In this document: piece by piece, positions 24,098 to 35,010 of the stretch
Position numbering within the stretch: the stretch's first letter is position 1
Layout of the letters: each line of letters begins with the position of its first letter
IMG/VR virus record: IMGVR_UViG_3300005577_000057
Coordinates: 1 to 40,138 of that record
Origin: a virus
Length of the DNA stretch: 40,138 nucleotides
Direction: 5' to 3' (one strand)
Notes under the pieces: model-generated
Seen by the model: the letters and a program-made list of their open reading frames with translations, nothing else
The model's database searches: none
What the model was told of the DNA's origin: nothing
Made by a program: the position numbers and the translations under genes

Positions 24098-24306
24098 GAT
24101 GCGCTCCTTGCTGCATAGGCCCACACGCTCGTGGGCGAGTTGATGAGGGCCCACTGCACGATCGGCAGGGTGGGCATGGCATTGGCTGCGGCGCGGCGAT
24201 CCTTGGCCTGCTGGCGGATGCGCGCGCCGTTCTTGGCCTGGTAGCGGGCCTTGGCGTCTGCTTGGGATGCGGTCAGCGGTGCGCCGGGGGCGCTGGTGCG
24301 GCTCAT
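24094..24306 (-). CDS. Hypothetical protein, 70 aa
   Basis: 70 aa from the ATG at 24306, overlapping the P-like gene's stop and, at its own stop, the winged-helix start. The first half is basic and disordered (SQADAKARYQAKNGARIRQQ), and the second half is hydrophobic (LPIVQWALINSPTSVWAYAA). A small nucleic-acid-binding protein is possible. No family recognised. Confidence 0.55.
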   Translation of the reverse strand: MSRTSAPGAPLTASQADAKARYQAKNGARIRQQAKDRRAAANAMPTLPIVQWALINSPTSVWAYAARSAS

Positions 24307-24911
24307 GCGGCACCAGCGATCGCGGGCAGAAAGCTCTCGGCGCGCAGCTGCGCCAGGCGTTCGCGGACATCGGCCGGCGGCGGCCCCACCTTCGCGTTGT
24401 GCTCGATGCGCACGGCAGGCGCTGGCACGTCGCCCCAGCCTGCCTCGATCTCGCGCTGCAGCGTGTAGCCCCAGCGCGAGCGGCAGGCCTTGTAGTCGCC
24501 GGCGCGGACCTCCATCGACATCGTGCAGGCGGCGCGCCACACCGCGGGGTGCGACCAGCTGCCCACCTGGCCGGCATCGCGCTGGCGCAGGCAGTCGCCG
24601 GCCTCGTGGAAGGCGACCTCGTGGTCGAGGCACGGCCGGCACAGCCGCAGGAACTCGCCCAGCGTCGGCGCGAACACACGGGTGCGGCAGGCGGCCAAGC
24701 CGCGCTCGATCTCTGCCGCTTGGAAGCCGGCCAAGCCCTCGCACCACTCGCCTTGCACGACGGCGGGCGGCACGCCGGCGTAGAGGTCAGCCATCTTGGC
24801 GCCGAGCTGGCCGCTCAGCCGCTCGAAGATCCGAGCGACCCAGCGCTGCGGAAGTGCCTCAGCCGACAACGTGGGCTTCGACGTCGATAGTGCGTTCATC
24901 GCGCTCTGCAT
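24303..24911 (-). CDS. Lambda P-like replicative helicase loader
   Basis: 202 aa from the ATG at 24911 (GGAG seven bases upstream), overlapping the 3' end of the initiator gene by 53 bp. The pattern RWVARIFERLSGQLGAKMAD, then VQGEWCEGLAGFQAAEIERG, then FAPTLGEFLRLCRP matches the replication protein P family, which recruits the host DnaB helicase to the initiator at the origin. It is directly downstream of an O-like gene, the classic O-P pair. Confidence 0.78.
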   Translation of the reverse strand: MQSAMNALSTSKPTLSAEALPQRWVARIFERLSGQLGAKMADLYAGVPPAVVQGEWCEGLAGFQAAEIERGLAACRTRVFAPTLGEFLRLCRPCLDHEVAFHEAGDCLRQRDAGQVGSWSHPAVWRAACTMSMEVRAGDYKACRSRWGYTLQREIEAGWGDVPAPAVRIEHNAKVGPPPADVRERLAQLRAESFLPAIAGAA

Positions 24912-25677
24912 GGTGGTCTCCGGTGTTGGTCAAGCCGGCCAAGGTGGCGGCACGGCGGTCGTGGGTGGTCGTGGATGCGGTGGGGCGGCGCTGTCCAGCA
25001 GCGCGCAGGCAGAGGGCCTTGAGGTACTCGGCGGCGTCGGCAGGCCTTGCGACGCACGTCGTCCGGACGGCTTCGATGACGATCTCGTCGCCGTAGTCCT
25101 TGCAGAGCTTTCCGACGAACGAGCCGCACTGGGCCTTCGGCATTCCCTGCTCAGCAAGAAGCGACTTCCCGGTCGACCAGAGCTCGGCCTTGGTCATCTC
25201 GGTGGGCGAAGCGACGGCCTCGCCGTCCGTACCGCTAGGTACGGAATTACTCTTCTCTTCTCTTTCTCTAGCTAACGCAGGACTAACGCTAGGTGCGTTA
25301 GGTGATTGCTCGTTCCTCTTGGACTGAGCGTTAGCGGCTGTGTGGTTTGCGACGCGTTTCGCTGTCTGGCAGCGTTTCTTGGCAGATGCGCCGTTGTGCT
25401 CGTCGAACTTGACGATCGTGATGCCGTCGGCGTGATCCTCGATCCAGCCGATGCTGACCAGAGCGGCGGCGAAGCCGGTGATGCCGGTCTTGCGGTCGAT
25501 CTGGCGCAGCGTGAGGCCGGGCATGGTGCCGTCCTCGCTGTGCTGGTCTGCAGTCGCCCACAGCCAGTACAGGCCGCCCACCACTGCGGCTTCGCTGGTG
25601 TCGGTGGCGTCGACGAGCGCGCCGATCCGTGGGTCGTCCCACAGATTGCCGCGCATCTTGATCCAGTCGCCGGCCAT
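24859..25677 (-). CDS. Lambda O-like replication initiator
   Basis: 272 aa from the ATG at 25677, which overlaps the upstream TAA stop. The first 110 residues look like a winged-helix origin-binding domain: DWIKMRGNLWDDPRIGALVD, VGGLYWLWATADQHSEDGTM, then ITIVKFDEHNG. A low-complexity middle (NAQSKRNEQSPNAPSVSPAL, residues about 115-160) encodes the iteron cluster at 25272-25334. The C-terminal domain (EMTKAELWSTGKSLLAEQGM, KLCKDYGDEIVIEAVRTT) would contact the P-like loader. As in lambda, the origin probably lies inside this gene. Confidence 0.8.
   Translation of the reverse strand: MAGDWIKMRGNLWDDPRIGALVDATDTSEAAVVGGLYWLWATADQHSEDGTMPGLTLRQIDRKTGITGFAAALVSIGWIEDHADGITIVKFDEHNGASAKKRCQTAKRVANHTAANAQSKRNEQSPNAPSVSPALAREREEKSNSVPSGTDGEAVASPTEMTKAELWSTGKSLLAEQGMPKAQCGSFVGKLCKDYGDEIVIEAVRTTCVARPADAAEYLKALCLRAAGQRRPTASTTTHDRRAATLAGLTNTGDHHAERDERTIDVEAHVVG
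25231..25334. other. Candidate replication origin (iterons inside the initiator gene)
   Basis: Four copies of CTAACGC or its complement lie at 25272-25278, 25283-25289, 25295-25301 and 25328-25334. Their centres are about 11, 12 and 33 bp apart, close to whole helical turns. The middle two form an inverted repeat CTAACGC-TAGGT-GCGTTAG. A T/C-only A+T-richer stretch (25248-25269) lies alongside and could be the unwinding region. The site falls in the linker-coding part of the O-like gene, as in lambda. Confidence 0.65.
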
Positions 25678-25916
25678 TACGCCGCCTTGAGGCCGCTGAT
25701 CACGGCGAGGACCGGTCCGTTCTTCCACCGGCCGGTGCGGGAAAGCCGGACATCGCCCAGCGAGTCACGGACCACGCGGATGGCCTGCTCGTGGTCGCCG
25801 GTGCCAGCAACGAACGAGGCGAGCCGGCCATCGATGCGCGTGTAGACGCGGGTCGTGAGGCCGAACGGATTGGTCACGTCGACCAAGTTGCCAAAGCAGT
25901 CATCTGCGAGATTCAT
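25677..25916 (-). CDS. Hypothetical protein, 79 aa
   Basis: 79 aa starting MNLADDCFGNLVDVTNPFGL at the ATG at 25916; the stop overlaps the initiator start. Two halves alternate short strands and loops (TTRVYTRIDGRLASFVAGTG; SLGDVRLSRTGRWKNGPVLA). It lies directly before the replication initiator in the early operon. No family recognised. Confidence 0.6.
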   Translation of the reverse strand: MNLADDCFGNLVDVTNPFGLTTRVYTRIDGRLASFVAGTGDHEQAIRVVRDSLGDVRLSRTGRWKNGPVLAVISGLKAA

Positions 25917-25952
25917 GACTTATTCCCAGTTGAGTAACGGGTTAGTTCGGTG

Positions 25953-26147
25953 TCACTTCCGACGAAAAAGCAGCACGACGCCGCCCTTCTCTTCGGTGCG
26001 CTGGAAGCCCTCGGCGTCGCCATCAGCGACAACCTTGGAGAGGGCCTGCTCGTATGTGAGCCCGCGCTTTTCCGCGTAGGCGCGGACGTATGGCATGTCG
26101 TCCTGGGTGAACTCCAGCGACAGTTCTTCAGGGGCGGTGATGGGCAT
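25953..26147 (-). CDS. Small early protein, 64 aa
   Basis: 64 aa from the ATG at 26147, chosen for its AGGAG ribosome site 6 bases upstream; a longer open frame exists. Acidic N-terminus (MPITAPEELSLEFTQDDMPY), a helical middle (VRAYAEKRGLTYEQALSKVV) and a basic end (VVLLFRRK). The helical middle could be part of a ribbon-helix-helix-type regulator. Function unknown. Confidence 0.58.
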   Translation of the reverse strand: MPITAPEELSLEFTQDDMPYVRAYAEKRGLTYEQALSKVVADGDAEGFQRTEEKGGVVLLFRRK

Positions 26148-26193
26148 TGCGTCTCCTCGTGTAACGAACAAATGACGGTCGCGTGTCTGGCAA

Positions 26194-26379
26194 TCAGAGA
26201 GGCGCAAACGAAGAATCGGAGCCGAAGTCCTCCTCCAGCTTTTCCATGACGTAGCTGTAGAGCCAGGCGGTCATCTGCTCGCCGTGCTTCTCGGCAATGC
26301 GGGAGATGCGCTCACGGGCTTCAGGGGTGGCCGACAAATTGATGCGCTCGGTGCGAGCGTCTTTGCGGTTGGCGTACAT
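26194..26379 (-). CDS. Ribbon-helix-helix-like regulator, 61 aa
   Basis: 61 aa from the ATG at 26379. RTERINLSATPEARERISRI followed by AEKHGEQMTAWLYSYVMEKL has the strand, helix, turn and helix pattern of small CopG/Arc-type DNA-binding proteins. It is an early gene close to the switch region. It may be an auxiliary regulator of the early operon. The family assignment is by pattern only. Confidence 0.6.
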   Translation of the reverse strand: MYANRKDARTERINLSATPEARERISRIAEKHGEQMTAWLYSYVMEKLEEDFGSDSSFAPL

Positions 26380-26431
26380 GGTCGAAAAGGAGAAGTTGAT
26401 GAATGGATGGATCGAGTGCTGGGAGGCAGCC

Positions 26432-26542
26432 TCAATCGAGGTGCTCAGACGTGTCCGGCACGAATGGCGTGAACAGGCAGAGCCAGCAGAGGACGGCCAG
26501 CAGCAGCAGGCAGTCGAGGGCATAGGCGATGTGTGTGCGCAT
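26432..26542 (-). CDS. 36-aa membrane peptide
   Basis: A 36-codon frame starting MRTHIAYALDCLLLLAVLCW and continuing LCLFTPFVPDTSEHLD. Nearly the whole middle is one hydrophobic helix with a charged end. It starts seven bases after the preceding 25-aa frame. Both fit the tight operon between cro and the ribbon-helix-helix gene, but neither has an independent family match. Could be a small membrane peptide. Confidence 0.4.
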   Translation of the reverse strand: MRTHIAYALDCLLLLAVLCWLCLFTPFVPDTSEHLD

Positions 26543-26548
26543 GGCAGT

Positions 26549-26626
26549 TCAGAGCCGGCAGGCGCTGCCAATGGCGGCGATGGCCACAGCGATGGCGATC
26601 TGGAGAAGCGTGGGGTCGAGCGTCAT
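26549..26626 (-). CDS. 25-aa hydrophobic peptide
   Basis: A 25-codon frame, MTLDPTLLQIAIAVAIAAIG then SACRL, starting three bases after the Cro-like stop, with a GGAG 9 bases upstream. Nearly all of it is one hydrophobic helix. The close coupling to cro argues for translation, but the small size makes it uncertain. Confidence 0.35.
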   Translation of the reverse strand: MTLDPTLLQIAIAVAIAAIGSACRL

Positions 26627-26629
26627 GAC

Positions 26630-26905
26630 TCAGGCTCCAGCTGCAGCCGCCCGGGCGATGGCGCGACGTTGCGTCTTGATCAGCTCAGGCCAGATGGCCT
26701 GCCAGTCATCGGGGCGCAGATCGCGGCGAGAGACGAGGCCCTTGGTGGCCTGCTCGATCGACACGCAGTTCTCTGGGCTGGGACGGCGCTGGCCGTAGCC
26801 GTGCTGCCATTGGCGAATCTGGGCGTCACTCTTGGCACCGATCCGCTCACGCAGTTCGGCAACGGACATAGCGCCAGGGAGGGAAAGGTACTCATGGAGG
26901 TTCAT
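26630..26905 (-). CDS. Cro/YdaS-like regulator
   Basis: 91 aa starting MNLHEYLSLPGAMSVAELRE at the ATG at 26905. The pattern SVAELRERIGAKSDAQIRQW, then GQRRPSPENCVSIEQATKG, matches the Cro/YdaS class of small helix-turn-helix phage regulators. It ends with RRDLRPDDWQAIWPELI. It is the first gene of the left operon and divergent from the repressor, the cro position. The ATG lies only eight bases after the proposed -10 box, so the mRNA may have little or no leader. Confidence 0.82.
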   Translation of the reverse strand: MNLHEYLSLPGAMSVAELRERIGAKSDAQIRQWQHGYGQRRPSPENCVSIEQATKGLVSRRDLRPDDWQAIWPELIKTQRRAIARAAAAGA

Positions 26906-26913
26906 GAGTACAG

Positions 26914-26942
26914 ATTCTGTAGCAAAAGCTACGTCACGTCAA
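26914..26942 (-). promoter_or_regulatory. Left early promoter (drives the Cro-like operon)
   Basis: On the minus strand TTGACG (26937-26942), a 17-bp spacer, and CAGAAT (26914-26919). The spacer contains operator O1. Sigma-70 type; five of six and four of six consensus matches. Confidence 0.72.
26920..26931. promoter_or_regulatory. Repressor operator O1
   Basis: Perfect palindrome TAGC-AAAA-GCTA apart from the central A-tract (read TAGCTTTTGCTA on the other strand), extended to GTAGCAAAAGCTAC. It fills most of the spacer of the left early promoter, so a bound repressor or Cro would block RNA polymerase. Confidence 0.75.
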
Positions 26943-26954
26943 TAGCTTTTGCTA
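26943..26954. promoter_or_regulatory. Repressor operator O2
   Basis: TAGCTTTTGCTA, the same palindrome as O1, centred 23 bp from it, directly beside the -35 box of the left promoter and over the -35 region of the repressor's own promoter. It suggests cooperative binding with O1 and control of the repressor gene. Confidence 0.75.
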
Positions 26955-26964
26955 GCGTAGCGCC

Positions 26965-26973
26965 TGCTAATGT
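26965..26973 (+). promoter_or_regulatory. Repressor promoter with extended -10, leaderless start
   Basis: TG-C-TAATGT is an extended -10 box, and the repressor ATG begins six bases later at 26980. No ribosome site is present, so the transcript probably starts at or next to the AUG, as with lambda cI from PRM. Confidence 0.55.
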
Positions 26974-26979
26974 TTCGCT

Positions 26980-27570
26980 ATGAAGAACGAAGCAGTAAAT
27001 GAGCAGCGGAGGCTGCTTCTGGAGAGCGCGGCTCGCAAGGTCGGCGGAAGAGCGGCGCTTGGTCGGCGCTTGGGCTACAAAGACGGCGCCTTCGTCGGCC
27101 AGATGATTTCAGGCCATCGGCCGATCACCGAGAAGACTATTGAAGCTGTACAGAGCCTGACGGAATTGCGCGGGTGGTTCGACAAGACGCCAGATCGTGA
27201 CGCAGTTCACAAGGCTCTAGGGGTAACTGTTAGCAACAGTGAATCCAAAGACGCTGATACTAAAAGCGTACTTTCGGAAATTCCAATTGCAATGCCCTAC
27301 TCCTCTGACAACCTTCGCTCCGCCATCCTGCTTCTGGGAAGCTTAATTGCAGCCCTCGACGATCGCAGTCGTAAAGTATTAGGTCTCTTGCTCGCAGATT
27401 TGACTGTTGCGCCTGACGATGCTCATGACGTAGCAAGCAAGGCTGCGGCACTGGCAAGCACACAGAGACCTGTAACAACAAATCGACGGCTAAATCAAGC
27501 CCTCACCCGACCAGACGCGCCTGAGACTGGCAACTCACCTTTGTTCGGCATATCAGGTTTGCCGCGATGA
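26980..27570 (+). CDS. CI-like repressor without peptidase domain
   Basis: 196 aa. Residues about 8-70 form a helix-turn-helix domain: LLLESAARKVGGRAALGRRL, GYKDGAFVGQMISGHRPITE, KTIEAVQSL. The remainder (RSAILLLGSLIAALDDRSRK, VLGLLLADL) is helical and may be a dimerisation part. No S24 peptidase Ser/Lys dyad or Ala-Gly cleavage site is visible, so RecA-triggered self-cleavage is unlikely and induction may use an antirepressor. It is divergent from the Cro-like gene, and the four TAGC-AAAA-GCTA palindromes nearby are its probable operators. The base composition is lower in GC than the structural genes. Confidence 0.75.
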   Translation: MKNEAVNEQRRLLLESAARKVGGRAALGRRLGYKDGAFVGQMISGHRPITEKTIEAVQSLTELRGWFDKTPDRDAVHKALGVTVSNSESKDADTKSVLSEIPIAMPYSSDNLRSAILLLGSLIAALDDRSRKVLGLLLADLTVAPDDAHDVASKAAALASTQRPVTTNRRLNQALTRPDAPETGNSPLFGISGLPR

Positions 27571-27995
27571 AAGCGTTTTTCCTAGCAGCCTTGATTATCG
27601 GTGCGGGGCCCGCGAGCTCAGCTGAATGGAAAATGATTACATCCTCTAGTTCTGAAGATGGTAATCGCACCTATATCGAGGCCGATGAGGACTCAGTGAG
27701 AGAAAGGCCTCCGTACCGACAAGCATGGATACGATACTCATACCTCAAACCAAAAAAGAATGAGACTGACGGTAAGCCCTACCGATCTACGGCAGCGCTT
27801 ACTTTGTTTGATTGCAAGAATGAAGAGCTGACGGATTTGGCGACGCTCGACTATTCGTCGATGTTTGGCGCTGGAGAAGCAAGGCACTCCACAACTACGC
27901 CACGAGCTCTAGCTGTTCGCAATCTACGGCCCGTTGTCCCCGATAGCGTTGGCGAAAACATCCTGCAGTGGGCGTGTACCCGCCAACCTAAGTAG
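27567..27995 (+). CDS. Exported protein in the repressor operon (lysogenic-conversion candidate)
   Basis: 142 aa. An N-terminal signal peptide (MKAFFLAALIIGAGPASSA, likely cut before EWK) is followed by a domain with EWKMITSSSSEDGNRTYIEA and two Cys (FDCKNEEL and WACTRQPK). The layout recalls the surface-adhesin E-like domain common in Betaproteobacterial exported proteins; this is a tentative resemblance. The start overlaps the repressor stop (ATGA), and a terminator follows, so it is expressed from the repressor promoter in lysogens. A role in superinfection exclusion or host surface change is plausible. Confidence 0.65.
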   Translation: MKAFFLAALIIGAGPASSAEWKMITSSSSEDGNRTYIEADEDSVRERPPYRQAWIRYSYLKPKKNETDGKPYRSTAALTLFDCKNEELTDLATLDYSSMFGAGEARHSTTTPRALAVRNLRPVVPDSVGENILQWACTRQPK

Positions 27996-28012
27996 GCTTC
28001 CGTGCCTTCGCA

Positions 28013-28036
28013 GACCGCCCTAGAGGCGGTTTTTTT
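28013..28036 (+). terminator. Intrinsic terminator of the repressor operon
   Basis: Stem ACCGCC / GGCGGT (28014-28019 with 28025-28030), five-base loop, then a run of T to 28036. It separates the lysogeny transcript from the right operon promoter. Confidence 0.85.
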
Positions 28037-28055
28037 ACGCGCGCTAAAAAATATG

Positions 28056-28067
28056 TAGCTTTTGCTA
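28056..28067. promoter_or_regulatory. Repressor operator O3
   Basis: TAGCTTTTGCTA, identical to O2, directly before the -35 box of the right operon promoter. Confidence 0.75.
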
Positions 28068-28096
28068 TTGCATCGTCATGTAGCTTTTGCTACAGT
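28068..28096 (+). promoter_or_regulatory. Right operon promoter
   Basis: TTGCAT (28068-28073), 17-bp spacer, TACAGT (28091-28096). Operator O4 covers the 3' end of the spacer and touches the -10 box. The arrangement mirrors the left promoter: operator, TTG, operator, CAG. Confidence 0.65.
28081..28092. promoter_or_regulatory. Repressor operator O4
   Basis: TAGCTTTTGCTA in the context GTAGCTTTTGCTACAG, which is the exact 16-base sequence also found at O1 on the minus strand. Centred 25 bp from O3. Confidence 0.75.
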
Positions 28097-28126
28097 AGCT
28101 CCATCCCAACACAACGGATGGACACC

Positions 28127-28276
28127 ATGAAGACCTACCTGATCACCTTCGCGGATGGCTTGACCACCACCGTGAGCGCCTTCGACCGTGACGGCGCACA
28201 AGAGACTGCGATCGACCACATGGAAGACGCAGGCATCGCCCACTCGGCCATCCGTTCCATTCGGGTGCTGGCATGA
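28127..28276 (+). CDS. Small early protein, 49 aa
   Basis: 49 aa, MKTYLITFADGLTTTVSAFD at the start, then DGAQETAIDHMEDAGIAHSA. Strand-turn-strand followed by a helix. It is the first gene of the right operon, about 30 bases after the -10 box, and overlaps the next start as ATGA. Function unknown. Confidence 0.6.
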   Translation: MKTYLITFADGLTTTVSAFDRDGAQETAIDHMEDAGIAHSAIRSIRVLA

Positions 28277-28431
28277 ACCGCCGTGTGGGCCACATGGCCG
28301 AGAACAGCCGGATCGACCGCCGCAGCGATGAGCTGGTGGAGCGCGAGGGCATGAAGCTGACCCTGGCGCTGTACCTCCTGTGCCTGCTCTGCGTGGCGTG
28401 CTTCGTCAAGTTCGTGCAGGTGACCGCATGA
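28273..28431 (+). CDS. Small membrane protein, 52 aa
   Basis: 52 aa with a charged N-terminal half (HMAENSRIDRRSDELVEREG) and one transmembrane helix (LTLALYLLCLLCVACFVKFV). Overlaps both neighbours in ATGA form, supporting translation. Function unknown. Confidence 0.58.
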   Translation: MNRRVGHMAENSRIDRRSDELVEREGMKLTLALYLLCLLCVACFVKFVQVTA

Positions 28432-29045
28432 GCACGCCGCTGTACCACTCCACGCCGCGCACGCCGGTGGCCGCCTCCCCGCAGGTAGCTCCGGCCGACG
28501 CTGTTGCGGAAGCCTTGGACGCCCTTGAGCGTCGGAATTGGGGCACTGCACAAGGGCTGGTCGCCGCAAAGCTGGTCGCCGAACTGCGCGCGACTCTCGC
28601 CATCGGCCCGGTAGTCCCGGCCCTAAAACCTGGAACTCCTGGCCCGTGGCGAGTTTCGGCCGATGGCCTCCGCATCTGCACCGACTATCGCGACGAAAAC
28701 GGCAACGACCGGCCGGATAGCTACACGCGCGGAGGACATCCGAAAGTCATCGCAACACTGTCAGATGCGTCGTGGAGATCGTTTGAAGATCGGGTGGCGG
28801 ACGCCAAGGCCATCGCGGCTCTGGGTGGCGCCCCAGCAGCTCCGACACCGGCACAGCCGAGCGAGGATGCACGAGACGCGGCGCGGTATCGTCGCCTGCG
28901 CGCTCAGAACTGGCATGACTCCGACTTGTTCGTCGTCTCCGGCGGCAAGGCAAGCGTGCGGCTGGGCATCGACTGCCCATCCGGCAGCCGGCTGGATGCG
29001 GCTGTCGATGCCCTGCTATCCAAGCCGGAAGGGAGCGCATCGTGA
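28428..29045 (+). CDS. Modular early protein with VAP linker, 205 aa
   Basis: 205 aa from the ATG at 28428. It begins with a linker (MSTPLYHSTPRTPVAASPQV) and has a helical module VAEALDALERRNWGTAQGLV and AAKLVAELRATLA. A close relative of that module occurs in the 550-aa protein at 31132 (DAFERQERGTVQAHVAAKLV). A second module begins at TPGPWRVSADGLRICTDYRD and a third at DARDAARYRRLRAQNWHDSD (the latter of a type frequent in phage small proteins). Probably a mosaic of interchangeable modules. Function unknown. Confidence 0.62.
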   Translation: MSTPLYHSTPRTPVAASPQVAPADAVAEALDALERRNWGTAQGLVAAKLVAELRATLAIGPVVPALKPGTPGPWRVSADGLRICTDYRDENGNDRPDSYTRGGHPKVIATLSDASWRSFEDRVADAKAIAALGGAPAAPTPAQPSEDARDAARYRRLRAQNWHDSDLFVVSGGKASVRLGIDCPSGSRLDAAVDALLSKPEGSAS

Positions 29046-29275
29046 GCGCCGTCTACGCCACCAAGCCAGCCACGGCCAACGACCTGGCCGAAGCGCTGAT
29101 GACGCTGATCGATCAGGAGCTCGGCGGCATGTCGGCCGCTTGCCGGGATCGCCTGGACACCGCCATCGACGCCCTGCAGACGTCGGCCTTCGGTGAGGGC
29201 ATCGATCACGAGCGCGATCGCATCGTGCGGTCCATTCGTGGCCTTGCAACCGGCATCAGCCTGGGGGTCGCATGA
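29042..29275 (+). CDS. Hypothetical protein, 77 aa
   Basis: 77 aa from a GTG overlapping the previous stop (GTGA). Mostly helical: ANDLAEALMTLIDQELGGMS and CRDRLDTAIDALQTSAFGEG. It overlaps the next gene by 4 bp. Function unknown. Confidence 0.55.
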   Translation: MSAVYATKPATANDLAEALMTLIDQELGGMSAACRDRLDTAIDALQTSAFGEGIDHERDRIVRSIRGLATGISLGVA

Positions 29276-29433
29276 GCCGCCCCCTCGACACCGACCTCGA
29301 CCAGCGCATAGCCGCTGCCATCAAGGCCCGTGGCCCCGTCGAGCGCGATGTGCTGCGCAGCGAGTTCGACCGCTGCTCCCTCTATGTCGTTGCCCTCGGG
29401 CTGATCGGCGCCCTCGTCATCTTTTTCCTGTGA
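29272..29433 (+). CDS. Small membrane protein, 53 aa
   Basis: 53 aa: a charged helix (LDQRIAAAIKARGPVERDVL) followed by a C-terminal transmembrane segment (SLYVVALGLIGALVIFFL). Starts in an ATGA overlap. Tail-anchored layout. Function unknown. Confidence 0.55.
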   Translation: MSRPLDTDLDQRIAAAIKARGPVERDVLRSEFDRCSLYVVALGLIGALVIFFL

Positions 29434-29440
29434 GGCCGAA

Positions 29441-29554
29441 ATGACCGCCTGGCAATACATCCGCCTGAATTACATGCTGGCCCGCCGGCAGCACAACCCG
29501 ATTGAGTCGCTGCGGATCGCCCTCAAGGCCAACGCACAACCTCTCCCCTTCTGA
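29441..29554 (+). CDS. Small basic peptide, 37 aa
   Basis: 37 aa, MTAWQYIRLNYMLARRQHNP then a short helix, basic and with no membrane segment. It follows the previous stop by seven bases. Translation is plausible but unproven, and no family is recognised. Confidence 0.45.
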   Translation: MTAWQYIRLNYMLARRQHNPIESLRIALKANAQPLPF

Positions 29555-29602
29555 ATAGGTAAGTCGGCACCTGTAACGCCGGCATTTTTCAAGGAAATCA
29601 TC

Positions 29603-30262
29603 ATGGGCTTCGTAGCATCTGACTCTGGCGGCGGCAACTTCAAGCGCGTCCCCGCAGGCGTCCATATCGGCCGCTGCTATTCGTTGATCGACCTGGGCAC
29701 ACAACTGACGACTGGTCAATTCGGCGAGAAGCTGCAGCACAAAATCCGCATCGGATGGGAGTTGTTTGGCGAAGACGAGAACGGCGCGCCGCTCACAGTT
29801 GACGTCGACGGCAAGGAAATGCCGATGGTCATCAGTAAGAGCTACACGGTCAGCTTGCATGAGAAAGCAAACCTCCGCAAAGAGCTTGCCCAGTGGCGGG
29901 GTCGCGACTTCACTGAGGAAGAAGCAAAAGCATTCGATATCTCGAAGCTGGTTGGCGCGTACTGCATGGTCAACGTCACTACCAGCGAGACGAACGGCAA
30001 GACCTATAGCAACGTCGCTGGCCTGACGCCGATCCCCTCGGCTCTCAAAAACGCAAAGCCAGAAGGCGTGCATGACATCGTGAAGTTCGATCTCGACGCG
30101 CCTGACATGGCTGTCTTCAACGCGTTCCACACGCAGCTCAAGGACACCATTCGCAAGAGTCCTGAGTGGGCCAAGCATGAGCGTGGTGGGCGCCATCAGG
30201 CTGAGCCTGATCAGGGGCACGACGAAGGCTACGCCGTCGCCGAAGACGAAATCCCGTTCTAG
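29603..30262 (+). CDS. Single-stranded DNA-binding-like protein ending DEIPF
   Basis: 219 aa with an AAGGAA ribosome site. The first 150 residues alternate short strands of an OB-fold type (HIGRCYSLIDLGTQLTTGQF, KIRIGWELFGEDENGAPLTV, YCMVNVTTSETNGKTYSNVA). The C-terminus becomes acidic and ends EDEIPF, the classic SSB tip that contacts host repair and replication proteins. It probably coats ssDNA for phage replication and recombination, and may load NinB or the nucleases encoded in the left operon. Confidence 0.72.
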   Translation: MGFVASDSGGGNFKRVPAGVHIGRCYSLIDLGTQLTTGQFGEKLQHKIRIGWELFGEDENGAPLTVDVDGKEMPMVISKSYTVSLHEKANLRKELAQWRGRDFTEEEAKAFDISKLVGAYCMVNVTTSETNGKTYSNVAGLTPIPSALKNAKPEGVHDIVKFDLDAPDMAVFNAFHTQLKDTIRKSPEWAKHERGGRHQAEPDQGHDEGYAVAEDEIPF

Positions 30263-30272
30263 GAGGCCTGAC

Positions 30273-30491
30273 ATGAACCGCTCTCGCTCCTTCAGCTGCG
30301 TGCCTTGCAGCGCCCACAGCACGTCGCAGTTCAATCCCAAGTGCCCAGGCTGCCGGATGCGTCAACAGGCCCTGGCCTGTGCACCGGTCCCGTTTCCATC
30401 GAAGGACGCCTGGCGGGCTGGCATGAAGCCCTACACGGCGCCGAAACAGGTCGCTCCTCTCGCCCCCGGAGAGCAAGGGAGGGCATCTTGA
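30273..30491 (+). CDS. Small zinc-ribbon-like protein, 72 aa
   Basis: 72 aa from the ATG at 30273 with an AGGAGG ribosome site. CVPC (residues 9-12) and CPGC (24-27) form a likely zinc site, followed by a basic tail (MKPYTAPKQVAPLAPGEQGR). The stop overlaps the following TTG start. Function unknown. Confidence 0.6.
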   Translation: MNRSRSFSCVPCSAHSTSQFNPKCPGCRMRQQALACAPVPFPSKDAWRAGMKPYTAPKQVAPLAPGEQGRAS

Positions 30492-30778
30492 GCACCTCAT
30501 ACACACCTGGGCCGTGGACCGTAGCGTATCGCGATACGAACGGACAAGCGGTGGTCAAGGCCGAGCACATCGAGGTCGCAACGTGCTGGCACCACTGCGT
30601 CGGGGCGATCGAGAAAGAGATGGAGGTCAATGCCCGCCTGATCGCCGCCGCGCCGGACCTACTAGCTGCGCTGGAGAGCGTCATCGAGGCCTGCGAAGGC
30701 TATGTGCCCAACACCAGCAAGCAGGTCTGGGCAGATGCATATCTCGCCATCGCCAAGGCCACCGGGAGCGCGTCGTGA
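30488..30778 (+). CDS. Small phage protein of the NARLIAAAPDLLAAL type, 96 aa
   Basis: 96 aa from a TTG that overlaps the previous stop (TTGA). It has a YTPGPWTVAYRDTNGQAVVK start, the common phage module with NARLIAAAPDLLAALESVIE, and a helical end. Similar modules are frequent in phage early regions; their function is unknown to me. TPGPW also occurs in the 205-aa protein at 28428 (TPGPWRVSADGLRICTDYRD). Confidence 0.65.
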   Translation: MSTSYTPGPWTVAYRDTNGQAVVKAEHIEVATCWHHCVGAIEKEMEVNARLIAAAPDLLAALESVIEACEGYVPNTSKQVWADAYLAIAKATGSAS

Positions 30779-30960
30779 CCGCCTACCTCCCAGTCTGCGA
30801 CTACTGCAGAGCCGACAGCCACACCCACTACCGCACCAGCTGCTCTGGCTGCACTGCCCGTCGTGCTCGCATATCTGCAGAGCACAACCAGGTATCCGAC
30901 GCACAAGTCGATGCCGCTGATTCTTTGTTTGGCGTTCTGCCGGAGACACATGATGACTAA
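30775..30960 (+). CDS. Small zinc-binding-like protein, 61 aa
   Basis: 61 aa from a GTG overlapping the previous stop. CDYC (8-11) and CSGC (23-26) give a likely zinc site, then a basic patch (TARRARISAEHNQ) and acidic end. Overlaps the next gene by 11 bp. Function unknown. Confidence 0.55.
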   Translation: MTAYLPVCDYCRADSHTHYRTSCSGCTARRARISAEHNQVSDAQVDAADSLFGVLPETHDD

Positions 30961-31132
30961 ATTGACCCGTGATGAATGGATGCGCCGCTATGCCGCACAC
31001 CTGGTGGAGGTCGGCGGTCTTGAGCAAGCGAGGGCGGACGAGTTTGCCGAAGCCGGTGCAGACCTTGGATGGGAAGACGACGACCTGCCTGAAGATGCAG
31101 CCGACGAAGAGATGAGCTACTGGGGCGATTGA
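30950..31132 (+). CDS. Acidic small protein, 60 aa
   Basis: 60 aa starting MMTKLTRDEWMRRYAAHLVE; a second ATG follows at 30953. The second half is strongly acidic (ADLGWEDDDLPEDAADEEMS). Overlaps the next start by one base (TGATG). Acidic small proteins may mimic DNA, but no test of that is possible here. Confidence 0.5.
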   Translation: MMTKLTRDEWMRRYAAHLVEVGGLEQARADEFAEAGADLGWEDDDLPEDAADEEMSYWGD

Positions 31133-32784
31133 TGACTGCCAATCTCACAAACACAGCCCCCACCTCCCCCGCCAGTGGAGCCCTGCCGGCCGACTCGCAT
31201 TTCCTGACGTGGCTGGCGGACCGGCTCGTGCATGTCTACGGCGAGAACCCCAACGTAGATTTCGTGCACGCCACGCGACGCATTGCCGCCGCTCTCGCAT
31301 CCCGGGAGGCCAGCAGCGCCACGATTTCCAGCGAACAGGCCCGAATGCTGGTGGACGCGCTTGGCCGATGCATAGCGGCATCGGGCATCGTTCGCGATGA
31401 CATTGACGGCTTCAGTGGGCCACAACTCCTGATGTTTGCCGACGATCTGTGCGAGATGCTCAAGCAACGCGCCGGCCATGAAGCCAGCCCCGCCCTGCTA
31501 CCTCGCGAACAAGACTTCCACGATTGGTTCGCCGCGAACTACAACGGCGAGGTGGTCTTCAGCGACCCCCGGTGGCATTCCGAAAGCATTCTTCGCTGGG
31601 CACGTCGTGCTCTTGCCTCCCCGCAGGTAGCTCCAGCCCTGACGGACGAGCAGATGCGCGAGGCGTTGTGGTTTGCGATGGATATGACCAACGTCATCGG
31701 CCGGACGCGCGCCAACTTGATCGAGTACTTTTTGCACAAGGTCAACAAAGACCGGCTCGCCACCCCTGTACAGGTAGCTCCGCAGGGCAAACGCAAACCG
31801 TGGGACACGCTCACGGCACTGGAGAAAGCCCCGAAGTTGATCGAGGAGCTGGAGTCCGAGTCCGAGCGCATCACCCGATGCAGCAACAGCCCGTTGGATG
31901 GCCTGCTTCAATCTGCGGCCGATGTGTTGCGCGAACTGACGGCCACGGGTCCCGCCCCGGTAGCTCCGCCAAACTTGAGTAGCCCGCTGGCTGGCGATTG
32001 CCGCACCGTAGGCGGCTTCCTGAGCGATGTCATGACAGCGGCCGGATTGGTCGAGCATGGACGTCAATGCAAGCCTCTGGCCGAGCGGATTTCGGTCGCT
32101 TGTTCTGACCTCAGGGCTCGGATTTTTCAAGGCTCCGCCCCGGTAGCTCCGACCGACGAGCGAGAAGTCCTGCGCGCCGAGCAAGCGGCTGCCGTGATGC
32201 CTCAGATCGGGCCGTTGTTGGATGCGTTTGAGGGCTTGAACAATGACACCCTCTGCCTTCTCCGCGACGAGGCGCCGGGCTTGCTAAACGCCTTGAGGGC
32301 AATCAATCGCTCGATGGAAGACTGCGCCCCGGTAGCTCCGACACCGGCCCCTGGCGCCGTGCTGGATGTCATCGATGCCTTTGAGCGGCAGGAGCGCGGC
32401 ACCGTGCAGGCACACGTCGCCGCCAAGCTGGTGGCCGAGCTGCGACGCGCTTTGTTGGTAGCTCCGACACCGGCACAGCCGAGCGAGTGGCAGCCGATCG
32501 AGACGGCGCCGCAGAGAGGCATCATCCTGCTCGGCTTGACCCCCAACGAGGAGCACGAGGACGGCTACGTGAGCCCGGGCTACTGGATGGAGTCTGACGA
32601 CGATGGCCCGGACAACATGGGGCACGACGCTGGCTTCGTCGACGTTCACTTCGACTTCTTCACTTGCGCTCGATCGATTGGCAATCCTGCGTATCAGCAC
32701 AAGGGCCTCCAGCCGACGCACTGGCAGCCCCTGCCGCCGCCTCCCCTGCCATCCGAGCCGGAAGGAGAGAGCGGCCATGACTGA
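31132..32784 (+). CDS. Mosaic DUF551 protein, 550 aa
   Basis: 550 aa from the ATG at 31132. It is built of short modules joined by VAP linkers (residues encoded at 31626, 31773, 31959, 32142, 32331 and 32457). One module (DAFERQERGTVQAHVAAKLV) is close to one in the protein at 28428. Others include LIEELESESERITRCSNSPL and DEREVLRAEQAAAVMPQIGP. The C-terminal 90 residues are DUF551: EWQPIETAPQRGIILLGLTP and then THWQPLPPPP. DUF551 proteins are common in phage early regions, and their function is unknown. The repeated linker DNA makes module exchange plausible. Confidence 0.7.
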   Translation: MTANLTNTAPTSPASGALPADSHFLTWLADRLVHVYGENPNVDFVHATRRIAAALASREASSATISSEQARMLVDALGRCIAASGIVRDDIDGFSGPQLLMFADDLCEMLKQRAGHEASPALLPREQDFHDWFAANYNGEVVFSDPRWHSESILRWARRALASPQVAPALTDEQMREALWFAMDMTNVIGRTRANLIEYFLHKVNKDRLATPVQVAPQGKRKPWDTLTALEKAPKLIEELESESERITRCSNSPLDGLLQSAADVLRELTATGPAPVAPPNLSSPLAGDCRTVGGFLSDVMTAAGLVEHGRQCKPLAERISVACSDLRARIFQGSAPVAPTDEREVLRAEQAAAVMPQIGPLLDAFEGLNNDTLCLLRDEAPGLLNALRAINRSMEDCAPVAPTPAPGAVLDVIDAFERQERGTVQAHVAAKLVAELRRALLVAPTPAQPSEWQPIETAPQRGIILLGLTPNEEHEDGYVSPGYWMESDDDGPDNMGHDAGFVDVHFDFFTCARSIGNPAYQHKGLQPTHWQPLPPPPLPSEPEGESGHD

Positions 32785-33046
32785 CCCAACACTCAAGCGC
32801 TCAAGCGTCCTCATCAAGTACACAGGCAGCGACGGCTACAGCTTCGAATGCTTGACGAACAGCCGCCACACCGAAGGCGGGCCGGAAATGCCTCTGATGG
32901 TTGCCTTCGAGGAACTGAGCCGAATCCTGCATCTGTTCGGCCACGGCGAACAGGCCATGAAGGCGGCTCAGGAAGCTGCGCAGCGAGTAGCCGATTGGCG
33001 TGCTGGACGCGCCCTCCCCACCCCATCCCAGGAAGGACAGCCATGA
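32777..33046 (+). CDS. Hypothetical protein, 89 aa
   Basis: 89 aa with a GGAGAG site before the ATG at 32777. A strand-rich start (SSVLIKYTGSDGYSFECLTN) and a helical end (GEQAMKAAQEAAQRVADWRA). Overlaps both neighbours. Function unknown. Confidence 0.6.
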   Translation: MTDPTLKRSSVLIKYTGSDGYSFECLTNSRHTEGGPEMPLMVAFEELSRILHLFGHGEQAMKAAQEAAQRVADWRAGRALPTPSQEGQP

Positions 33047-33636
33047 CCGATGCCGAAATCATTGATATCGTCGAGAACCATGTTGGCATGGGCCATGGGG
33101 GATGGGACATGGTCAGCAACGAGGAGTTGGTCGCCGGCTTCCGCATTGCGCTCCGTCGTGCCGCCCCCTCACAGCCGGAAGGAGCGGAGCCGGTGACGAT
33201 CGACCGCGAACTCTTGGCTGCCATTCAGGCCTATCGAGATCACAACTCGAAGTTGCTCATGGCGCAGGCCATCATATTGGGCGCGACGCCAGAAAAAGGC
33301 GTCACGATTCCAATTGACCCGCGCATGGCAGAGGCGTGGAATTCTGCGGTCGAGGCGCAGAAACGCCTTTACGACTTGACGGATGCAAGGCTGTCGGCTG
33401 GGGCGGCTGCGCCAGATGAGGGAGAGGCGTGGCAGCCGATTGCCACGGCGCCAAGGGATGGCTCCGAGGTGCTGGCCTGGGAGCCGGGCATTGGCCGCAT
33501 GGTGCTGTTCTTCAACGTCAGCAGGGAAGCGCCCGAGGGCGTCTGGATCGACGGTCTCTCAGGTGAGGATTTTCATCCCTCGCTGTGGTGGCCCGTCCTT
33601 CCTCCTGCTCCCAAGGGAGAGGAGGGAAAGCCATGA
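33043..33636 (+). CDS. DUF551-containing early protein, 197 aa
   Basis: 197 aa from the ATG at 33043 with GGAAGGA upstream. An N-terminal helical part (MTDAEIIDIVENHVGMGHGG) and a middle module with PVTIDRELLAAIQAYRDHNS precede a C-terminal DUF551: AWQPIATAPRDGSEVLAWEP, then DFHPSLWWPVLPPAP. It is a shorter relative of the C-terminus of the 550-aa protein. Ends in an ATGA overlap with the excisionase. Confidence 0.7.
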   Translation: MTDAEIIDIVENHVGMGHGGWDMVSNEELVAGFRIALRRAAPSQPEGAEPVTIDRELLAAIQAYRDHNSKLLMAQAIILGATPEKGVTIPIDPRMAEAWNSAVEAQKRLYDLTDARLSAGAAAPDEGEAWQPIATAPRDGSEVLAWEPGIGRMVLFFNVSREAPEGVWIDGLSGEDFHPSLWWPVLPPAPKGEEGKP

Positions 33637-33824
33637 ACAAACTGATCGGCATCGCAGAGATCAGCGCCGCGCTGAACGTATCCCATTCCTACACACGTGA
33701 CCGCCTAGTCAAGCGCCCCGACTTCCCCAGGCCCGCGCTGTCACTGAGCCAGAAGTGCAGACGCTGGAGCAAGGAGGCGTTCGAGGACTGGCTCAGCAGG
33801 GAAACGAAGAAGCAATCGAGGTGA
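33633..33824 (+). CDS. AlpA/MerR-type excisionase
   Basis: 63 aa from the ATG at 33633 (overlap ATGA, GGAGGG upstream). LIGIAEISAALNVSHSYTRD then RLVKRPDFPRPALSLSQKCR and WSKEAFEDWLSRE is the winged-helix AlpA/excisionase pattern: a helix-turn-helix, a PDFPxP wing and the W-x-x-x-x-x-x-W ending. It directs the integrase toward excision by bending DNA next to attP, which begins about 40 bp downstream. Last gene of the right operon before attP. Confidence 0.82.
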   Translation: MNKLIGIAEISAALNVSHSYTRDRLVKRPDFPRPALSLSQKCRRWSKEAFEDWLSRETKKQSR

Positions 33825-34005
33825 TTCCCCAGGAATTTCCCCATGGCGAGGTTTCTCGCTCTGGGTTCGATTCCTGTCGAGGGCACCATTGATATTTTCA
33901 GCGGTTGTTGCCCGATTCCCGTCATCCCCGTTTTCGCCTGGATCGACAGTGACTTACGGCGCGCGGTGATGTTTTCGATTCCCGTCATTCCCGCTGATTC
34001 CTGTT
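33823..34005 (+). repeat. Five GATTCC repeats around attP (arm-site candidates)
   Basis: GATTCC occurs in the same orientation at 33823, 33869, 33914, 33977 and 33996. Two copies extend to GATTCCCGTCATYCCCG (33914-33930 and 33977-33993), identical except for one base; two others read GATTCCTGT. One copy is part of the tRNA T-loop in attP. Arrays like this around a core fit integrase or excisionase arm binding. Confidence 0.55.
33864..33888 (+). other. Candidate attP core (3' end of a tRNA gene)
   Basis: The sequence reads as a tRNA end: GG, T-loop TTCGATT, 3' T-stem CCTGT, acceptor strand CGAGGGC, discriminator A and CCA. The bases before it do not complete a tRNA, so this is a fragment, not a gene. 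The CGAGGGC acceptor strand and the similarity to the end of E. coli argW suggest a tRNA-Arg (CCU) target, tentatively. It lies between xis and int, where attP is expected. Confidence 0.75.
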
Positions 34006-34053
34006 TATTTCGTGCCATGATCCCCCACGCATTTACGCACCGTGGGGAAGAGG

Positions 34054-35010
34054 ATGGCATCGATCACGAGGTATGGGGACAGGTGGCGCGCGCAAGTTGC
34101 CATCAAGGGGGTGAGGAAGTCGGCGGTCTGGGGCACTAAGCGAGAGGCCATCGCCTGGGCCAACCGCATCGAGAACGAGATCGAAGACGGCCTGAAGGGT
34201 GGCAAAACCTTCCTGCAGGCGGTCGACGAGTACAAGCTCCGCGTCAGCGTGAACAAGCGCAACCCGATATGGGAGGCCCGGCGGCTGGCCGCATTCACTG
34301 AGTACTTCGGGCCCGGCCGGCTGTTGGCCAAGATCACGAGCGACGACATCGGGAGGTGGAGGGACTTCCGGCTCAAGGGTGGGCAGCTCAACGGCAGGGA
34401 ACACAAGCCTGTCGTCGGCGCGACCGTCCAGCGTGAGTCGAACCTGCTGAGCAACCTCTTCACGGTGGCGCGCAAGGAGTGGAAGTGGATCCAGACTCAC
34501 CCGTTCGAGGGCGTGCGCATGCCCGAACAGGCCGATGCGCGGCACCAGGTGTGGCGCTGGCAGCAGATGAAGCGGGTGCTGCGCTCCGACCGCGCGGGGA
34601 AGACTGGGGAGGTGGTGAAGGCGTTTCACATCGCCCTGCACACGGCACTGAGGCTGTCCGAGATCATCTCGGGCCAGTACGACCCGAGGCTGAGGGTCAT
34701 CGTGCTCAACCGCAGCAAAGGCGACGGGAACAAGCGCGTGCTCGTGCCGGTGACTCGCCGCGCCGCCAAGCTGTTCCCCGTGGCCTTCACCGTAGGCGCC
34801 AACGAGGCGAGCACCCTGTTCAGCGATCTACGTCAGCAGTTGCTAATCGAGGACTTGACGTTCCACGACACGCGCGCCACGGCGCTGACGCTGCTGTCCA
34901 GGCGCATGGACGTCATGACCCTCGCGCGGATCAGCCGGCACAAGGACCTGAACATCCTGCTGAACACTTACTACAGAGAAAGACCCGAGGACATCTCGGC
35001 CCGGATATAA
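34054..35010 (+). CDS. int: Tyrosine integrase
   Basis: 318 aa from the ATG at 34054 (GGGGAAG seven bases upstream); a GTG four codons earlier (34042) is possible. An N-terminal arm-binding-like domain (SITRYGDRWRAQVAIKGVRK), a core-binding domain (about 50-160) and a catalytic domain follow. The catalytic set is visible: Arg200 in TALRLSE, Lys222 in SKGDG, His271 and Arg274 in HDTR, His296 in SRHKD, and a Tyr at 306 or 307 in NTYYRE. It recombines attP with a host tRNA attB. Here it follows attP on the same strand. In the prophage it would sit directly behind the host tRNA gene. Confidence 0.92.
   Translation: MASITRYGDRWRAQVAIKGVRKSAVWGTKREAIAWANRIENEIEDGLKGGKTFLQAVDEYKLRVSVNKRNPIWEARRLAAFTEYFGPGRLLAKITSDDIGRWRDFRLKGGQLNGREHKPVVGATVQRESNLLSNLFTVARKEWKWIQTHPFEGVRMPEQADARHQVWRWQQMKRVLRSDRAGKTGEVVKAFHIALHTALRLSEIISGQYDPRLRVIVLNRSKGDGNKRVLVPVTRRAAKLFPVAFTVGANEASTLFSDLRQQLLIEDLTFHDTRATALTLLSRRMDVMTLARISRHKDLNILLNTYYRERPEDISARI

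Follow-up and report, generated by a model that had tools for sequence, protein, structure and literature searches.

The operator clusters OL and OR of phage lambda flank the cI-rexAB block, and transcription from PL is co-directional with cI; neighbouring operators lie about 23-25 bp apart, and the repressor mRNA made from PRM is leaderless. Both clusters are bound by CI, Cro uses the same sites, and the rex genes adjoin cI and are co-transcribed with it from PRM (PMC11077077). For the rac prophage of E. coli, the relevant passages of PMC5700373 describe divergent RacR and YdaS genes with three palindromic repeats between them, which RacR bound in EMSA.

The stretch of DNA analysed here (the window, a 40,138-base virus record that is not part of any longer genome) belongs to a temperate phage, as its gene content indicates: a replication operon on the left, an excisionase-like gene and an integrase on the right. 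We hold with high confidence that the region between them is a lambda-like immunity region, in which a 196-aa repressor acting on TAGC-N4-GCTA sites at both ends would silence both early operons. The genes concerned are as follows.

24303-26905, minus strand: leftward operon (cro-like, Arc-like small protein, replication initiation, P-like helicase loader), presumably a single transcription unit
24303-24911, minus strand: P-like helicase loader, within the leftward operon
about 24859-25683, minus strand: replication initiation protein, within the leftward operon
26630-26905, minus strand: Cro-like YdaS-family regulator P0002, 91 aa, opening the leftward replication operon (Pfam YdaS_toxin, 2.9e-11; PHROG 35 transcriptional repressor, 2e-17)
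26980-27570, plus strand: putative repressor P0001, 196 aa, with an N-terminal HTH (GYKDGAFVGQM) and a short helical C-terminus
27567-27995, plus strand: candidate lysogeny-side cargo gene, 142 aa, encoding a secreted Adhesin_E-like protein (Pfam PF16747, 7.2e-18), in the position of lambda rexAB
28014-28036, plus strand: likely intrinsic terminator, ACCGCC-CTAGA-GGCGGT then a T run, read by eye and missing from the consensus scan
28118-35010, plus strand: rightward early operon, small ORFs through integrase, presumably a single transcription unit
29603-30262, plus strand: PHROG 862 protein, rightward early operon
33627-33824, plus strand: excisionase/AlpA-like protein, rightward early operon
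34042-35010, plus strand: integrase, last gene of the rightward early operon

P0002 scores 43.4 bits against Pfam YdaS_toxin, above the gathering cut-off of 30; P0001, at 15.3 bits, falls under it. The terminator likely separates the repressor transcript from the rightward promoter.

A preliminary description of this DNA had placed four palindromes in two pairs, at 26920/26943 and 28056/28081. All four are exact; it had overlooked a fifth, 26958-26969, which brings the cro/repressor end to three sites, against two at the other early promoter. The sites (none with an assigned strand) and promoters are listed here.

26914-26942, minus strand: predicted leftward (cro) promoter; TTGACG 26942-26937, spacer 17, CAGAAT 26919-26914; a consensus match, which says nothing on activity
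26920-26931: predicted operator L1, TAGCAAAAGCTA, an exact palindrome in the -35/-10 spacer of the cro promoter, abutting the -10 box
26943-26954: predicted operator L2, TAGCTTTTGCTA, a perfect palindrome next to the cro promoter's -35 box
26958-26969: predicted operator L3, TAGCGCCTGCTA, between the left pair and the repressor ATG, overlapping the likely -10 of the repressor promoter
26968-26973, plus strand: putative repressor promoter -10, TAATGT with extended TGC, suggested by conservation at L3
28056-28067: predicted operator R1, TAGCTTTTGCTA, next to the -35 of the rightward early promoter
28068-28096, plus strand: predicted rightward early promoter; TTGCAT 28068-28073, spacer 17, TACAGT 28091-28096; read by eye
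28081-28092: predicted operator R2, TAGCTTTTGCTA, between the -35 and -10 of the rightward early promoter; the site's final TA starts the -10 box

The four TAGCAAAAGCTA-class palindromes (TAGC-AAAA/TTTT-GCTA) have 0 mismatches each; dinucleotide shuffles gave 0.38 matches expected, allowing up to two mismatches, and none of 100 reached four. In the window there are two instances of the paired form, against an expectation of 0.00. The preliminary description would have been undermined had its palindromes been common elsewhere in the genome; outside the two ends we found no TAGC-W4-GCTA palindrome in the phage. The clusters are 1.1 kb apart. Both promoters do have GCTATTG on the -35 side and CTACAG on the -10 side, as had been claimed. 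The mirrored layout also proposed is approximate, not exact: the copy-to-copy distance is 23 bp in the left pair and 25 bp in the right, so that the register of CTACAG to the -35 differs slightly between the two (L2 and L3 are 15 bp apart).

What can be read directly is the sites and where they lie, and that at both ends they are conserved together and vary together; from this we infer binding, dimerization, blocking, autoregulation and competition by Cro, in the following scheme. The 196-aa repressor would bind TAGC-N4-GCTA as a dimer, at L1, L2 and L3 between its own gene and the cro-like gene, and at R1 and R2 in the promoter of the recombination/xis/int operon. Since L1 with L2, and R1 with R2, would each bracket the -35 and fill the spacer of a lytic promoter, we propose that a bound pair of dimers blocks RNA polymerase at both. 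L3, over the repressor's own -10, could provide autoregulation, and commitment to lysis probably comes about through the cro-like YdaS protein competing for these operators.

The left promoter is the region's only sigma-70-like match in a consensus scan, with TTGACG-15-TACAGA as an alternative register; that scan did not list the rightward promoter, whose TTG-type -35 and TAnnnT are conserved in 30 loci. The putative repressor -10 ends 6 nt before the ATG (26980), with no visible Shine-Dalgarno sequence; this short distance suggests that the repressor mRNA is probably leaderless.

Relatives were gathered by the protein sequence of the repressor's DNA-binding domain, not by DNA motif: 12 viral loci, phage VarioGold, 22 genome loci (all in Burkholderiales genera) and further viral loci, giving 41 non-identical loci with the window included. 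Of 399 Burkholderiales genomes searched with a profile, 5 had matches. When half-sites were searched for blind to the motif, TAGC-N4-GCTA emerged as common to the upstream region and the downstream pair in most of the 41. Scanning relatives for paired sites, as the preliminary description had suggested, located the downstream (right) pair in 30 of 41 loci and at least two perfect upstream sites in 29; among 23 other permutations of the half-sites, used as a control, at most one locus had a downstream pair and none had two or more perfect upstream sites. The distance from repressor start to right pair ranges from 478 to 4670 bp, and the clusters are 0.5-4.7 kb apart, while spacing within the pair is constant at 25 (24 loci) or 26 bp (6 loci). 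On the left, the consensus across relatives is L1 and L2 23-25 bp apart, bracketing the cro -35, with L3 usually 15 bp further; most relatives have the counterpart of L1 at -60/-62 relative to the repressor start, and a site in the L3 position with at most one mismatch is found in 36 of 41. Conservation on this scale makes the layout very probably functional.

The right pair was absent from the stretches examined in 11 of the 41 relatives, several of which are incomplete or may carry the pair further out. A Paracidovorax/Acidovorax group (loci L100, L102-L104, L106 and L107) has left sites shifted, most to -70/-38/-23, and no right pair within 5 kb; it seems to be without one. L2, perfect in the window, has a decayed 3' half (GCTC, GCTT or GCAC) in most relatives; the perfect copy may alter autoregulation. 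In one relative (L005:5700-5711) the repressor stop codon TAG supplies the first three bases of R1, so that gene end and operator overlap.

The preliminary description also gave weight to a 16-base string, GTAGCTTTTGCTACAG, identical at 28080-28095 (plus) and 26932-26917 (minus). The identity is real, the weight misplaced: only TAGC and GCTA are conserved in relatives, the central four bases varying freely, which makes the 16-base identity incidental. What is conserved is TAGC-N4-GCTA, in pairs spaced 23-26 bp about a -35 box. As a diagnostic signature the 16-mer was rejected: it occurs in 68 other IMG/VR stretches, only one of them with any second site 23-27 bp away. The abundance of this 16-mer in viral contigs (68 loci) is what might be urged for seeing in the palindromes a chance or low-complexity repetition of an AT-rich 12-mer; with zero pairs expected in the window, and the pair present in 30 of 41 relatives against at most one for permuted half-sites, that explanation is already refuted and its probability negligible.

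A more specific objection is that the palindromes are elements of sigma-70 promoter architecture (extended -10, TGCTAnnnT) rather than repressor operators. R2 and L3 do run into TAnnnT (R2 in 30 of 30 loci), the T at the sixth position is kept in 97-100% (97% of loci after an L3-type site), and TGC often precedes. Yet the two-fold symmetry is kept in full even where it serves no -10, at R1 and in the outer half of each site; the rest of the phage is free of the motif, whose flanks change with repressor class, as set out below. We regard this account as very improbable.

A scan of DNA for the pair only matched at least 120 stretches. Among the 80 loci listed, some have a different repressor helix adjacent (DASYLSQ or VKxASVxxW) and some are chance matches without a repressor; for these two groups the core TAGC-N4-GCTA was demanded by the scan, so that only flanks (and genes) are informative. 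Among the matches listed, operators are flanked by G..C in GYKDGAFV phages and by T..A in DASYLSQ phages, at both promoters alike. The G..C:T..A counts for GYKDGAFV and DASYLSQ phages respectively are 110:4 and 0:60 at the left sites, and 80:1 and 0:90 at the right, again among matches listed; the loci are related, not phylogenetically independent, and Fisher values on these counts therefore overstate the evidence. Two Pseudomonas phages found by protein, PG1 and LPPA56, agree with the DASYLSQ flank pattern. The joint change at both promoters is strong indirect evidence for one protein reading both, although flank changes also alter the -10 box, and part of the co-variation could reflect changes in the promoters. 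The VKxASVxxW class (L141, L154, L162, L184, L208) has pairs nearer TTAGCC-NN-GGCTAA inside, with 24-bp spacing.

Which protein reads the sites is a separate question. The palindromes might primarily be operators of the YdaS Cro-like protein, with the 196-aa HTH protein acting elsewhere or on the left cluster only. In lambda, Cro and CI share their operators (PMC11077077), and a Cro-like protein similar to P0002 is encoded in most relatives, nearly always beside the left sites. Against this, the operator flanks track the class of repressor helix, and the recognition helix DGAFVxQM is nearly invariant wherever group A (GYKDGAFV) sites occur; the Cro homologues too differ between GYKDGAFV and DASYLSQ groups, so that the flank pattern does not fully separate the two proteins. 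We consider it improbable that Cro is the primary ligand, if less so than the promoter-element account. Joint control of the leftward cro/replication and the rightward operons by one repressor is strongly supported by these comparisons.

P0001 has no Peptidase_S24 match in a Pfam scan. An S24 domain is present in four relatives (L085, L007, L088, L090), just under the cut-off in L005, and was not found in L016, L099, L101, L110 and L117; repressors of relatives that have the same operators and no S24 domain are 131-205 aa long. In the L097 and L114 repressors, the N-domain and the S24-like end appear, by eye, to be separated by an additional stretch like a second HTH. Searched against PDB sequences, the repressor N-domain profile gave nothing at E 1, and P0001 alone only chance matches. 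The AlphaFold model of P0001 is confident for the N-terminal HTH (pLDDT about 95) and poor for the C-terminus (pTM 0.40), and Foldseek with this model returned mainly generic HTH proteins, none with an E value under 0.001. An S24-less repressor might, for example, be inactivated by an antirepressor; none was identified among the window proteins scanned.

Between repressor stop and R1 lies a slot of anything between -3 bp and about 4.9 kb, with different genes in different phages. Relatives (L009, L094, L011, L163) have genes for Fic, DUF1828, DUF4145 and nuclease proteins in it; the Fic protein matches PADLOC SoFic (1e-91) and the DUF1828 protein the candidate defence model PDC-M24B (PADLOC). 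By analogy with rexAB, the Adhesin_E-like gene of the window may be lysogeny cargo.

A wider picture can be drawn, tentatively and with somewhat less than even confidence: the repressor-operator-promoter cassette, its operator half-site doubling as the start of the -10 (TGCTAnnnT), would stay constant while the C-terminal half of the repressor is swapped between self-cleaving S24 and short helical domains; one operator code would be common to SOS-inducible and non-SOS phages, possibly with cross-immunity, and the slot between clusters would be a site for lysogeny cargo. Two TAGC-N4-GCTA sites about a -35 form a signature of 35-38 bp by which immunity regions can be recognized in unannotated temperate phages, its reach for the GYKDGAFV class being Burkholderiales hosts among the species genomes scanned; it delimits the cargo slot for lysogeny-expressed genes and predicts which phages should share superinfection immunity. 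That repressors with and without S24 are found beside the same operators makes the induction of S24-less phages a concrete question.

A literature search returned no description of TAGC-N4-GCTA operators, and phage Fc02 (PMC9936078), considered as a parallel, was dropped as Mu-like and irrelevant. The switch is of a known kind; its TAGC-N4-GCTA member is itself undescribed. The rac prophage resembles the window in its divergent repressor/YdaS genes with three palindromes between; its repeat, GCCTAA/TTAGGC, is unlike that of the window, and the passages on rac in PMC5700373 report no second operator cluster at a distant promoter. PG1 and LPPA56 share a left TTAGC-N4-GCTAA site; PG1 has a right pair 25 bp apart around TTG, LPPA56 one perfect and one decayed right site, and both, being DASYLSQ-type, differ from the window in recognition helix and flank letters. 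Variovorax phage VarioGold (OP296522.1) has a homologous repressor N-domain, a YdaS-like Cro and the same three left and two right operators. Its CI has an S24 domain (PMC9658991), which the window's repressor lacks, and no cargo gene lies between CI and right pair (a 63 bp slot), where the window has one; the words operator and palindrome are absent from the VarioGold paper.

Compared with lambda, the window has three sites on the left and two at the far (right) promoter instead of three per cluster, an L2-L3 spacing of 15 bp and a 12 bp operator, TAGC-N4-GCTA; no solved structure matches its repressor N-domain profile in sequence, the S24 domain is missing, and Cro is YdaS-like. The preliminary description likened control of both operons by one repressor, which the comparative evidence strongly supports, to OL/OR, and saw a contrast in the whole lysogeny module lying between the operators; this was mistaken, because lambda too has cI-rexAB between its own. 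Operator spacing is otherwise similar, and the repressor mRNA is probably leaderless here too. Repressor and cro diverge across an operator cluster (L1-L3, between 26905 and 26980), and a second cluster of the same sites lies beyond repressor and cargo, at an early promoter co-directional with the repressor: the lambda topology, cro-OR-cI-cargo-OL-early operon.
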